Source: a virus | Direction: 5' to 3' (one strand) | Virus record (IMG/VR): IMGVR_UViG_3300046007_006301 | Span: 1 to 28,642 of that record | DNA length: 28,642 bases | In this document: positions 4,611 to 28,528 of the stretch, piece after piece | How positions within the stretch are numbered: position 1 is the stretch's first letter | How the letters are laid out: the number at the start of each line of letters is the position of its first letter | Notes under the pieces: model-generated | Databases searched by the model: none | Told to the model about the DNA's origin: nothing | The model's input: the letters and a program-made list of their open reading frames with translations, nothing else | Made by a program: the position numbers and the translations under genes

Positions 4611-4891
4611 TTCTTGCCACCTTTCTCATAGATTTGCTTTTGTTCTACATACCACTTGTTCCAACCCTCATTCTTCAAGGAGCAATCATAGTATAATGTA
4701 TAATTTTCTACAACTGCTTTGAGCAACTCTGTAATAGCAACTTGATTGCCTTCGATTGTTTTTAATTCTGGGCAAGGTTGTTGGAGTTCTTTTATAGCAT
4801 CAGGGAATTTTGGCTTAGCTGGCATGAATCTTTCTATCATAGCACAACTTGCAATAAAAACTGAAAGGAGAGCTACTAATAGTAATCTCAT
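4607..4891 (-). CDS. Rz1-like outer-membrane spanin lipoprotein (o-spanin)
   Basis: A 94-residue lipoprotein with the signal sequence MRLLLVALLSVFIASC and lipid cysteine at residue 16. The mature part has the spacing seen in Rz1-type proteins: a proline/cysteine segment (PCPELKTIEG), a helix with LLKAVVENYTLYYDCS, and a C-terminal NEGWNKWYVEQK stretch. It lies directly after, and overlaps by 4 nt, a protein with membrane helices and a long periplasmic coiled coil, which is the normal arrangement of an i-spanin/o-spanin pair. The pair would fuse the inner and outer membranes in the last step of lysis. The assignment rests on topology and context rather than on a strong motif. Confidence 0.7.
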   Translation of the reverse strand: MRLLLVALLSVFIASCAMIERFMPAKPKFPDAIKELQQPCPELKTIEGNQVAITELLKAVVENYTLYYDCSLKNEGWNKWYVEQKQIYEKGGKK

Positions 4892-5409
4892 TTCTTTTCC
4901 CCTTTCATTTTCTCAATTGATGATTGTGTTGCTTTATTATGAATATCTAACATTTCCTTTGGTACTGGGCAATTCTCGATATATTTGATAACTTCCTCTA
5001 TCCTAACTCTCTCAGGGCCCTCAACCTTAACTTCTTTTAGAACTTCTTTAGTTTGCCATTTAACTATTTCATTGACAATAACTTTATTCTTTTTCTCAGC
5101 AAGTGCTTTCTTCTCAGCTATTTCTTTATCAAGCTGCTCATTAAGTTCCACTGCTTTTTGCTCTTGTACCTTAACTTGTTCCTCGACTTCTTTTAACCGT
5201 GCTTGCCATTTAGCTTCATTACTTGCAACACCAAGCGACCATGTGCTTAGCATAAGCAAGAAAAATCCGGCGAACATGATAGGTAGGCGATACTGCATAA
5301 CTAAAGGTAAGCCTCGCAGAAACTGCCCGGCTACCATCATAGTAACACCTACAAAGAATAGTAATACCCAAACAAGATCGGGTATGAATTCAAGAAGGTA
5401 CACTAGCAT
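4888..5409 (-). CDS. Rz-like inner-membrane spanin (i-spanin)
   Basis: A 173-residue protein with two hydrophobic segments (about residues 1-28 and 42-62), then a long charged coiled coil (about 65-115) and a C-terminal part with ENCPVPKEMLDIHNKAT, which resembles the C-terminal cysteine/His-Asn-Ala region of many Rz-type proteins. Its 3' end overlaps the start of the lipoprotein by 4 nt. Classical i-spanins have one membrane helix; this one appears to have two, so the coiled coil would reach the periplasm only if the N-terminus is periplasmic. No endolysin is visible nearby. A structural membrane protein is the main alternative. Confidence 0.65.
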   Translation of the reverse strand: MLVYLLEFIPDLVWVLLFFVGVTMMVAGQFLRGLPLVMQYRLPIMFAGFFLLMLSTWSLGVASNEAKWQARLKEVEEQVKVQEQKAVELNEQLDKEIAEKKALAEKKNKVIVNEIVKWQTKEVLKEVKVEGPERVRIEEVIKYIENCPVPKEMLDIHNKATQSSIEKMKGEKK

Positions 5410-5791: not shown

Positions 5792-6473
5792 TTATATATT
5801 CCTTTACAAAGGGGAAAACCAACGCTATTACTTTCGCGCACTCACGAGCTATTTCCATATGTTCTTGTTGTGTCCCATTTGCGGAACGTAGTTGAATATA
5901 ATGAATCCAGCTTCTCAAAGTACCATTCATATACATACGACTCATTGTAAGTCCTTCAGGTAAAATTGCCCTTGCTACTTCTTTAGCTATACCTTGACTT
6001 ATCGCAGCATTATATAGTTCTTTTACTTGTTTGATAATTGTGGTTTGTTCGTCTCTCCACCATCTTGCAATGTCCCTATGTTCTTGTTGTCTGAAGTCAA
6101 GCTCAATAGAATTTTGTCTGTTACTGGTGTCCTGTAACCTTGCCTCTCGAGGAACAAAATTGAGGTCTTTAACTGGGTCAGCATATCGCTGGGAGAACTC
6201 TTGGAAACTAAAACTTCTGTGTCTGAGGATTTGTCTTGCAATGTCTCTTGTGGTTTCGATTTCGAGGCACATATTGACCATTTCGAAGGGAGACCAGTGG
6301 GCGTTCTTAATAAGGTATCGTAGTAATCTGTCCGAGGTTTCTGTATTGGACTGATTACTTGGGTTCGAGACTCGGGCGCAGTAAGCGACAAGGTCCTGTA
6401 AATCGGGGGAACTCTGAAATTCATCCATCAAGTCTCCAGAGGGTTCAGAATAACTAATTAACTTTACTTTCAT
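5775..6473 (-). CDS. thyX: FAD-dependent thymidylate synthase
   Basis: Converts dUMP to dTMP with methylene-tetrahydrofolate and FAD. The diagnostic ThyX motif RHRxxSxxExSxRY is complete (RHRSFSFQEFSQRY, about residues 84-97), with the helical region IARQIL before it and the C-terminal EGLTMSRMYMNGTLRSW substrate segment. At 232 residues it has normal length. I prefer the ATG at 6473 to a GTG 9 nt upstream because AAAGGTG sits at good spacing before it. It overlaps the preceding unknown gene by 20 nt and the MazG-like gene by 17 nt. With NrdA/NrdB it completes a dTTP supply route. Confidence 0.97.
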   Translation of the reverse strand: MKVKLISYSEPSGDLMDEFQSSPDLQDLVAYCARVSNPSNQSNTETSDRLLRYLIKNAHWSPFEMVNMCLEIETTRDIARQILRHRSFSFQEFSQRYADPVKDLNFVPREARLQDTSNRQNSIELDFRQQEHRDIARWWRDEQTTIIKQVKELYNAAISQGIAKEVARAILPEGLTMSRMYMNGTLRSWIHYIQLRSANGTQQEHMEIARECAKVIALVFPFVKEYINEHEA

Positions 6474-26676: not shown

Positions 26677-27081
26677 TTATTTATCTAAAAAACTAAAATC
26701 AAATTTATCTGGATCATCTACTAATTGATCAATAGTTACTTCTGTCCATTTGCCGTCTATTTTAACTTCGACTTTTACTTTATTTAAGCTTGCTTGTATT
26801 TGCCGCTCAACTTCGTAATGCTCACCTGTTCGCTTCATGTATTCTATATGTATCCATTTCTTAAACTTATCAGTTTCAGCCATCTTACGAAAGGCTTCTT
26901 TTCTATTATCAAGTTGGCTACGACTAGATTCACTATAGCCATGGGCTCCAGATGCTTTATGTATACAATGGACAGCGCTAGACGTCTTGTTGCGTTTCTG
27001 TCCACCAGCACCGGTGCCCCTGGTATAGGACCACTCACAGTCTTTGGCAGTAATACTAAAAAAAGGTTCTTTATTATTCAT
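26677..27081 (-). CDS. Class I release-factor-like protein with GGQ motif (ArfB/PrfH-like)
   Basis: A 134-residue protein holding the catalytic domain of class I release factors: SYTRGTGAGGQKRNKTSSAV contains G26-G27-Q28, and SRSQLDNRKEAFRKM is the helix that follows in RF-type proteins. It lacks the codon-recognition domains of RF1/RF2, as ArfB and similar ribosome-rescue hydrolases do. It probably releases peptides from stalled ribosomes, useful when host mRNA is degraded; this is inferred. The gene is squeezed between tRNA-Phe and tRNA-Pro. Its ATG is only 6 nt after the tRNA-Phe CCA and has no Shine-Dalgarno outside that tRNA. Confidence 0.88.
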   Translation of the reverse strand: MNNKEPFFSITAKDCEWSYTRGTGAGGQKRNKTSSAVHCIHKASGAHGYSESSRSQLDNRKEAFRKMAETDKFKKWIHIEYMKRTGEHYEVERQIQASLNKVKVEVKIDGKWTEVTIDQLVDDPDKFDFSFLDK

Positions 27082-27822: not shown

Positions 27823-27952
27823 GATCCATTGTGGGAGGGATTTCGAAACCCTCATTTCGCTGCACTCTAACCTCTAAGCTACTGCCCCTGTGGAGCAGGT
27901 GGGACTCGAACCCACGCCTCGCTGCGTGTTATCCATTACACTACCACGGATC
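27823..27952 (-). other. Double tRNA-like module with swapped acceptor strands
   Basis: Read 5' to 3' on the minus strand this is: strand GATCCGTGG; TA; D-arm GTGT-8-ACAC; connector GCAGCGAGGC; T-arm GTGGG-TTCGAGT-CCCAC; strand CTGCTCC; loop ACA; strand GGGGCAG; TA; D-arm GCTT-8-GAGT; connector GCAGCGAAAT; T-arm GAGGG(T)-TTCGAAA-(T)CCCTC; strand CCAC-AAT-GGATC. Every base is used. CTGCTCC pairs with GGGGCAG (7 bp, one G-U) and GATCC-GTGG pairs with CCAC-AAT-GGATC. Both D-loops hold GG and both T-loops are TTCGANN, but neither half has an anticodon arm. It forms the 3' end of the structured RNA. Confidence 0.75.
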
Positions 27953-28439
27953 GCCGGAGTCATGACTTCCGACTATGGTACAGGTTAATTACTCCTAGAC
28001 CATATTGAAACACACTCATCATCTCTTTTTTGGACACCAGACCGGAGCGACCGGGGCTTGAAATGCCTGGCGATATCCTGCTTCGAAACAGGGATGGACA
28101 GAACGCCGCAGTGCCGAATGTGCTTCAATATGGTTGCCGGTTACAAAATCCGGCGTTACACTTTCGGAGTAACTGTTCTACCTATCCCGTCACCGACTTC
28201 GTTTAAGACTCGCCGCCTTTATACACGCTGATGGCCACGTGTTATGGTATCAGCTACTCTTTCCCAAGAGCCCCGATGTGAGGTATTGCCCTGTCCAGTG
28301 TCTTGTGTATCGGATGACACAGTCCTATCTTTTGTTTTACCCTGCCGGATGAATGGCCCGGAGGGAGGAAAAAAGAAACCTAAGACCCCTAACGCTGGTC
28401 TTGTCGCGCCTACTAATAACCGGCGTAGGACCGGGGATC
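27823..28439 (-). ncRNA. Large structured non-coding RNA (GOLLD/ROOL-like setting)
   Basis: About 617 nt without a credible gene, clearly more GC-rich than its surroundings and full of helices on the minus strand. A 19-bp helix joins 28134-28116 to 28017-27999; its two non-Watson-Crick positions are G-U pairs only if the minus strand is the RNA. Local hairpins include 28429-28409 (CCTAC/GTAGG), 28402-28382 (AAGACC/GGTCTT), 28365-28340 (CCCTCCGG/CCGG-C-AGGG), 28254-28227 (GCTGAT/ATCAGC), 28173-28155 (GTTAC/GTAAC), 28154-28136 (GCCGG/CCGGC), 28092-28077 (CCTG/CAGG) and 28054-28042 (CCGG-TCGCT-CCGG). It lies between tRNA-like elements. Size and phage tRNA context recall GOLLD and ROOL RNAs. Structured RNA is well supported; class membership is a guess. 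Confidence 0.8.
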
Positions 28440-28528
28440 TGGTGGGGACTAAAGGAATCGAACCTAACCGCCAACCACTCTACATATTATGGCAAGAGAT
28501 TTACAGTCTCCTGTAGAGAATAGCCCCC
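28440..28528 (-). tRNA. Degenerate tRNA-Tyr-like element (GUA)
   Basis: Acceptor GGGGGCT/AGTCCCC with encoded CCA, and anticodon stem GGAGA/TCTCT around CTGTAAA (anticodon GTA). Only 10 nt replace the D-arm region, the T-stem TTAGG/CCTTT has two T-T mismatches, and the variable region has 27 nt. CTCTACA (28518-28512) is fully complementary to TGTAGAG (28484-28478), giving a 7-bp helix outside the anticodon stem. It may be a repurposed tRNA that belongs to the adjoining structured RNA. Its first G is the last base of the upstream TAG stop. Confidence 0.55.

Follow-up and report, generated by a model that had tools for sequence, protein, structure and literature searches.

Our analysis of the IMG/VR phage contig IMGVR_UViG_3300046007_006301, over the 28,642 nucleotides (nt) of its positions 1 to 28,642 (hereafter the window), revealed that the 130 nt at 27823-27952 on the minus strand almost certainly form a conserved RNA domain in which two transfer RNA (tRNA) elbows are interleaved in one strand, as judged from comparison of its homologues. 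Read 5' to 3', the first half of the module is GATCCGTGG-TA-GTGT(AATGGATA)ACAC-GCAGCGAGGC-GTGGG(TTCGAGT)CCCAC-CTGCTCC, and after an ACA loop the second is GGGGCAG-TA-GCTT(AGAGGTTA)GAGT-GCAGCGAAAT-GAGGG(TTTCGAAAT)CCCTC-CCAC-AAT-GGATC, so that the minus strand divides without remainder into two halves of the same order, exactly as a preliminary, sequence-only reading of the window had claimed. The topology is nested. In the outer elbow the elements follow one another as in tRNA, from the 5' strand of the acceptor through UA and D-arm 1 to T-arm 2 and the 3' strand of the acceptor. Where its anticodon arm would stand there is instead an inner elbow of permuted order, which begins with T-arm 1 and continues with the closed acceptor hairpin, UA and D-arm 2. 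Two purine-rich connectors link the two bodies. The sequence-only reading had described a pseudo-symmetric dimer of elbows; the two elbows stand, but they are nested rather than a true dimer.

The exchange of strands between the halves is supported by an alignment of the 22 distinct modules (A1, made with MAFFT), in which 95.4% of the pair cells are standard and both partners change in 18 of 34 pairs, with 98 such cells compared with 31.5 in shuffles. Sliding the partner strand lowers pairing to 39-55%, and RNAalifold, run unguided on the alignment alone, returned the same pairs. Covariation was assessed by an R-scape-like test, using the G-statistic with average product correction (APC) and a null in which the branch substitutions of a FastTree tree are replayed at random sites. 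When the alignment was anchored at the outer end of the inner hairpin, five of all 10,296 pairs reached E <0.05, each of them belonging to the structure; the raw MAFFT alignment gave four passing pairs (4/4 in the structure), and a two-set test under the phylogenetic null found 11 of 35 pairs significant, none of the six helices lacking a significant pair. Column 3-145 of the outer stem covaries as C-G/U-A/A-U, and column 14-25 of D-arm 1 as U-A/G-C, the latter being significant against the phylogenetic null. Covariation in both swapped stems, which had been offered as a check of the sequence-only reading, was thus found, and it extends to the D-arms and T-arms. That reading had paired the 3' strand of each half with the 5' strand of the other, and the homologues bear it out: besides the covarying outer stem, the strands of the inner acceptor hairpin form 111 of 133 pairs within their own sequences vs. 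74.3 +/- 6.0 for strands taken from different sequences (0/20,000). Pairing of each 3' strand with the 5' strand of its own half, which would make two ordinary tRNAs and had been named beforehand as refuting the sequence-only reading, reached 45.1% compared with a shuffle mean of 44.9%. The swapped layout is therefore preferred, and the halves as separate tRNAs are rejected.

A GCAGC:GCAGC helix that the connectors would share in the manner of an anticodon stem was also considered and rejected, since it is broken in loci L143 (GCATA) and L144 (GCAGA) while connector 2 is unchanged; a single C2-G6 contact between the connectors is possible, changing in only one group of five sequences. The minimum-energy fold of the window copy holds the outer stem, the inner hairpin, both T-arms and D-arm 1. 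The single-sequence folding z-score is only -1.07, which is unexceptional, and folding energy alone thus proves nothing.

The contacts of the tRNA elbow include G19-C56, G18-Psi55 and the 15-48 pair (PMC4810234). In both units of the module U8, A14, U55, C56 and G57 are kept in all or all but one of the sequences, and G18G19 and A58 are likewise conserved, the GG of the D-arm 1 loop being present in 22/22. The outer unit (D-arm 1 and T-arm 2) has A15-U48 in all 22 sequences, whereas in the inner unit (D-arm 2 and T-arm 1) positions 15-48 are G-C in 13, A-U in five, U-A in one and mismatched in three. The resulting 19 fits exceed the shuffle mean of 10.4 (phylogenetic null p ~0.001 for this pair), and the last base of connector 1 covaries with the second base of D-loop 2. 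Since inner positions 15 and 48 lie in different halves, this Levitt covariation links the two halves and, together with the conserved elbow residues, supports the earlier suggestion that the halves fold as tRNA elbows. The lack of anticodon arms, also claimed before, was confirmed in 22/22 sequences, which carry connectors of 9-11 nt instead. The arm sizes first given hold in the window, except that T-loop 2 has 9 nt between its five pairs and comes to 7 nt only with a closing U.U pair; across the family the lengths vary, with D-loops of 6-10 nt and connectors within the range above. An AAT bulge sits within the outer stem. The inner acceptor is closed, its loop varies in length and no CCA is conserved; with no anticodon and no free CCA end, the domain cannot work as a tRNA. 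Neither ARAGORN nor Rfam at gathering scores made a call at 27823-27952, while five ordinary tRNAs were found elsewhere in the window. Promoter and terminator predictions were at chance level.

The search for homologues started from a neighbouring gene, encoding a BPL_N/amidotransferase-like protein, and was continued with DNA patterns from ever more diverged copies. These patterns contained the columns CCnTGGTA, GTTTCGAA, CCCACAnTGG and GCAGCGA; most of the diverged copies were retrieved with patterns that left out T-arm 1, the two D-stems, the inner hairpin and 15/48, and most covarying columns lay outside the search patterns. The module is present in 27 IMG/VR phage contigs including the window, spanning 2.6 to 191 kb, and IMGVR_UViG_3300042470_001057 carries an identical copy. 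A loose GCAGCGA...TTCGA scan gave mostly noise among the matches listed, yet it also yielded the key homologue L101, a divergent one, and a second family, described below. A covariance model built from 17 diverged sequences alone gives the window 125.4 bits (E 1.8e-32), with the next place at 16.6. No Rfam family covers the module. BLAST with four queries against 50,697 phage records gave no cultured-phage copy, one query gave no match in a plasmid set, and two pattern scans across 84,980 prokaryote genomes gave no match in GTDB. In L151, positions 5820-5884 correspond to an outer half on its own (D-arm, connector, T-arm 2, CCACAATGG), which lacks its partner strands and may be a remnant.

Regarding known RNAs, the inner unit resembles the tRNA-like domain of YrlA. 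The YrlA model (RF02553) aligns exactly at this unit with 25.7 bits in the window and 24.6-28.9 bits in homologues, the match spanning only positions 30-81 of 114; as these scores are far below the cut-off of 69 bits, the unit is considered a non-member. Both RNAs have the order T-arm, closed acceptor, D-arm, with conserved residues in the D- and T-loops and no anticodon arm, but here the permuted elbow lies inside a second elbow of normal order, and no Ro60-binding basal stem was matched. With tRNAs and permuted tRNA genes the module has in common an acceptor, a D-arm, a T-arm, U8, A14, 15-48, G18-G19 and TTCRA, while it differs in having two interleaved bodies and neither an anticodon arm nor a CCA end; compared with permuted tRNA genes, moreover, there is no sign of restoration to the standard order. 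Transfer-messenger RNA (tmRNA), including the two-piece (permuted) form, also has a tRNA-like domain without an anticodon arm, and in the permuted form the T-arm is followed by an acceptor hairpin. However, the module has no tmRNA reading frame and no pseudoknot domain, and tmRNA models scored 19.1 and 21.8 bits vs. 47, below half of their cut-offs. According to a 2023 paper (PMC10085705), all natural RNA permutations on record up to that time were circular; the non-circularly permuted hammerhead ribozymes of that paper likewise keep a natural RNA fold despite reordered strands. In those, though, the fold is another one and a single body is reordered, whereas here two bodies share strands. The claim that the layout is undescribed needs to be narrowed, the inner order being known from YrlA. 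As far as can be told, the interleaving of two elbows is without precedent; our literature search, whose coverage left out most preprints and subscription papers, found no description of this layout.

GOLLD (RF02032) and ROOL (RF03087) are, like the module and its surroundings, large structured noncoding RNAs of phage tRNA islands with palindromic or kissing loops and sometimes tRNA parts, and they have been reported to be RNA-only cages that form multimers via kissing loops and A-minor contacts (PMC12286853). They differ in that the window and most module-bearing contigs are without a match. For GOLLD (cut-off 150 bits) none was found in the window, and 2 of 39 contigs match, at other places: GOLLD RNAs of 226-228 bits lie at 4804-5263 of the L157 contig (G020) and at 73620-74084 of the L151 contig (G014), both of which carry the double-elbow module. 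As it occurs elsewhere on the same contig, GOLLD is a separate RNA from the module. ROOL (cut-off 99.1 bits) was found in none of the 39 contigs, the controls being silent as well. Assignment of the module to GOLLD, ROOL, YrlA or tmRNA was rejected on the covariance-model cut-offs.

The feature exceeds the 130 nt originally described. These belong to a module of ~180 nt that includes two upstream hairpins with palindromic loops (27953-27996), itself one module within a structured region of ~700 nt (27823-28528), the parts of which are listed below.

Table. Parts of the double-elbow module and of the structured region containing it (positions in the window).
Feature	Position	Strand	Remarks
Outer acceptor-like stem, 5' strand GATCCGTGG	27944..27952	-	Pairs with 27823-27834, 95-100% of cells, 22 homologues
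D-arm 1, D-loop with GG, outer elbow	27926..27941	-	TA at 27942-27943 just before
Connector 1 GCAGCGAGGC	27916..27925	-	Last base is tRNA position 48 of inner elbow
T-arm 1, loop TTCGAGT, inner elbow	27899..27915	-	Columns 40-55 and 41-54 covary
Closed inner acceptor hairpin CTGCTCC-ACA-GGGGCAG	27882..27898	-	7/7 pairs with both-side change in some homologue
D-arm 2, inner elbow	27864..27879	-	TA at 27880-27881 just before; column 87-102 covaries
Connector 2 GCAGCGAAAT	27854..27863	-	Last base is position 48 (U) of outer elbow
T-arm 2, loop (U)UUCGAAA(U), outer elbow	27835..27853	-	Columns 115-131, 116-130 and 117-129 covary
Outer acceptor-like stem, 3' strand CCAC-AAT-GGATC, conserved AAT bulge	27823..27834	-	Homologue alignment
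Upstream hairpin H2 GTCGG-AAGTCATGACT-CCGGC, palindromic loop UCAUGA	27953..27973	-	Compensatory stem: ATCGG/CCGAT, GTCGA/TCGGC
Upstream hairpin H1 AGG-AGUAAUUAA-CCU, palindromic loop UAAUUA	27982..27996	-	Stem AGAG..CTCT in L144
Cap hairpin, arms ACCATATTGAAGCACA ... TGTGTTTCAATATGGT around variable interior	27999..28134	-	Similar covarying arms, 39 loci
Module B, approximate limits	28135..28245	-	Recurs in L003, L009, L015, L018, L023 and L107, other orders
Module A, approximate limits	28246..28439	-	Recurs in 13 contigs, sometimes alone
tRNA-Tyr-like RNA (GUA), permuted D-stem strands, head of region	28440..28528	-	Stem CTCTAC/GTAGAG

In most homologues the loop of H2 is palindromic (UCAUGA, UAAUUA or UAGCUA) and that of H1 is UAAUUA or UGAUCA. 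Two separate palindromic hexamers occur in 16 of 20 sequences, the shuffles giving 3.8, and the H1 and H2 loops never share the same palindrome within one RNA; they have the look that would be expected of self-kissing loops. In most contigs cap hairpins flank the module on both sides; their ATATTGAAGCACAT...GTGTGTTTCAATAT-type arms covary and enclose many unrelated interiors. Several caps are common to different contigs and one occurs twice in L101; the cap count of 181 places covers both strands, corresponding to about half as many hairpins. Modules A (~195 nt) and B (~110 nt) are conserved without an Rfam match and are probably structured RNAs, A being found alone beside tRNA genes, e.g., in L025. 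At least five modules (A, B, C, D, E, where D is the double elbow) and several caps recur in differing orders among contigs, such as A B cap D in the window, A B c2 C c3 D in L003, D c2 E c6 in L144 and C c74 B c6 A in L023. The double-elbow domain thus appears to be one of several exchangeable structured modules in phage tRNA islands.

The tRNA-Tyr-like RNA at the head of the region is missed by ARAGORN. The 3' strand of its D-stem stands directly after the acceptor and pairs with a strand placed 3' of the anticodon arm, which looks like a non-circular tRNA permutation. Relatives were found in L003 (~1680), L004 (~4690), L006, L009, L010, L012, L018, L023 (~5190), L107 (~2275), L152 (minus strand, ~1075) and L154 (~6115), and the D-stem occurs in five complementary versions (CTCTAC/GTAGAG, CCCTAC/GTAGGG, CCTATC/GATAGG, CCACTC/GAGTGG and CCTGAC/GTCAGG). 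Another hairpin, AGGATGnTTACAGCAA...GCATCCTGTTTT, recurs in phage tRNA islands, namely at L117 (minus strand, 9807), L063 (8817), L113 (6499), L158 (5518), L151 (8927) and L101 (minus strand, 6914), with short forms in L113, L117, L121, L147, L148 and L151. Some copies carry a circularly permuted tRNA insert (T-arm, closed acceptor, D-arm, open anticodon stem), and the hairpin has no Rfam match at gathering scores. In addition, an RF-1-domain (GGQ) phage protein, a possible ribosome-rescue factor, is encoded at 26677-27081 of the minus strand of the window and adjoins the tRNA cluster.

Concerning function, the double elbow may be a rigid structural element that mimics tRNA inside a larger phage RNA, ornate in the way of GOLLD and ROOL. 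Its elbows would fix the geometry and present flat G19-C56 faces for docking, while H1 and H2, having different self-complementary loops, would pair with the same loops of other copies and so give homo-multimers. We favour this role because of the analogy to GOLLD and ROOL and the palindromic loops; the shuffled neighbours and caps and the presence of GOLLD on two of the same contigs are also cited for it. The whole reading, in which the interleaved double elbow acts architecturally in a GOLLD-like ornate RNA and helps it to form multimers, is given a probability of about 0.6, the architectural role taken on its own being put tentatively, at somewhat less than even odds. Several points weigh against it. 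That the modules form a single transcript is assumed; the palindromic loops could alternatively be compact internal hairpins or a protein site; and the strongly conserved T-loop 2, GUGG/CCAC and AAT bulge could equally be a protein-binding face. Furthermore, the conservation of parts of T-arm 2, GTGGTA and CCCACA is partly selected, as these columns were used in searching. A still more speculative extension is a cassette system, in which RNA domains that fold independently, the double elbow and the permuted-strand tRNAs among them, would be shuffled between phages by way of shared cap-hairpin arms. Various giant RNAs capable of self-assembly would be built in this way, and the double elbow would take part in the assembly as a two-headed tRNA mimic.

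The main rival to the architectural role is a tRNA mimic directed at proteins in the manner of YrlA, which we regard as rather unlikely. The elbows would bait or tether a host tRNA-elbow binder (TruB, DusA, RNase P, PNPase complexes or the ribosome), or compete with tRNAs for defence nucleases that attack them, surviving since there is no anticodon loop. DusA and TruB modify YrlA, which also binds PNPase (PMC8394870), and YrlA has been proposed to act as a competitor against an anticodon nuclease (PMC7790460); the YrlA order of the inner unit, its scores of 25-29 bits in the window and several homologues, and the high conservation of the outer elbow agree with such a role. However, every YrlA score is far under the cut-off, and the module is accompanied by other structured modules rather than standing alone. 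Processing of the inner permuted unit, or of the whole, by cutting and ligation into a tRNA or a regulatory tRNA-like product is improbable: permuted tRNA genes are restored via circularisation (summarised in PMC10085705) and the surroundings are dense in tRNAs, but an anticodon arm is present in 0/22 homologues, and the closed acceptor, the variable loop and the lack of a conserved CCA do not fit a precursor.

The long inverted repeats of the cap arms could promote exchange, and modules and caps are indeed shuffled, as expected if the inverted repeats acted at the DNA level in recombination or replication and the RNA-like look were secondary. Yet the G-U pairs, the tertiary residues specific to tRNA and the covariation of 15 with 48 have no explanation at the level of DNA, leaving this possibility very improbable. 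Finally, each half resembles a tRNA minus its anticodon arm, and half 1 of L144 and L157 scores 30 bits with the Rfam tRNA model, as decayed tandem tRNA genes might. We give hardly any credence to such decay, or to an assembly artefact, in view of compensatory changes that link the halves in 22 sequences, all distinct and drawn from many data sets, and of own-strand pairing at shuffle level.

The module would be the first RNA known to us in which two tRNA elbows share one strand via acceptor-strand exchange, a layout that rests on covariation and not on one sequence. Few natural examples of domain swapping and permutation in RNA have been described (PMC10085705), and the module is a clear addition to them. 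Being small and modular, it offers a way to test what the ornate RNAs of phage tRNA islands do, and the palindromic loops that flank it yield a direct prediction about assembly.
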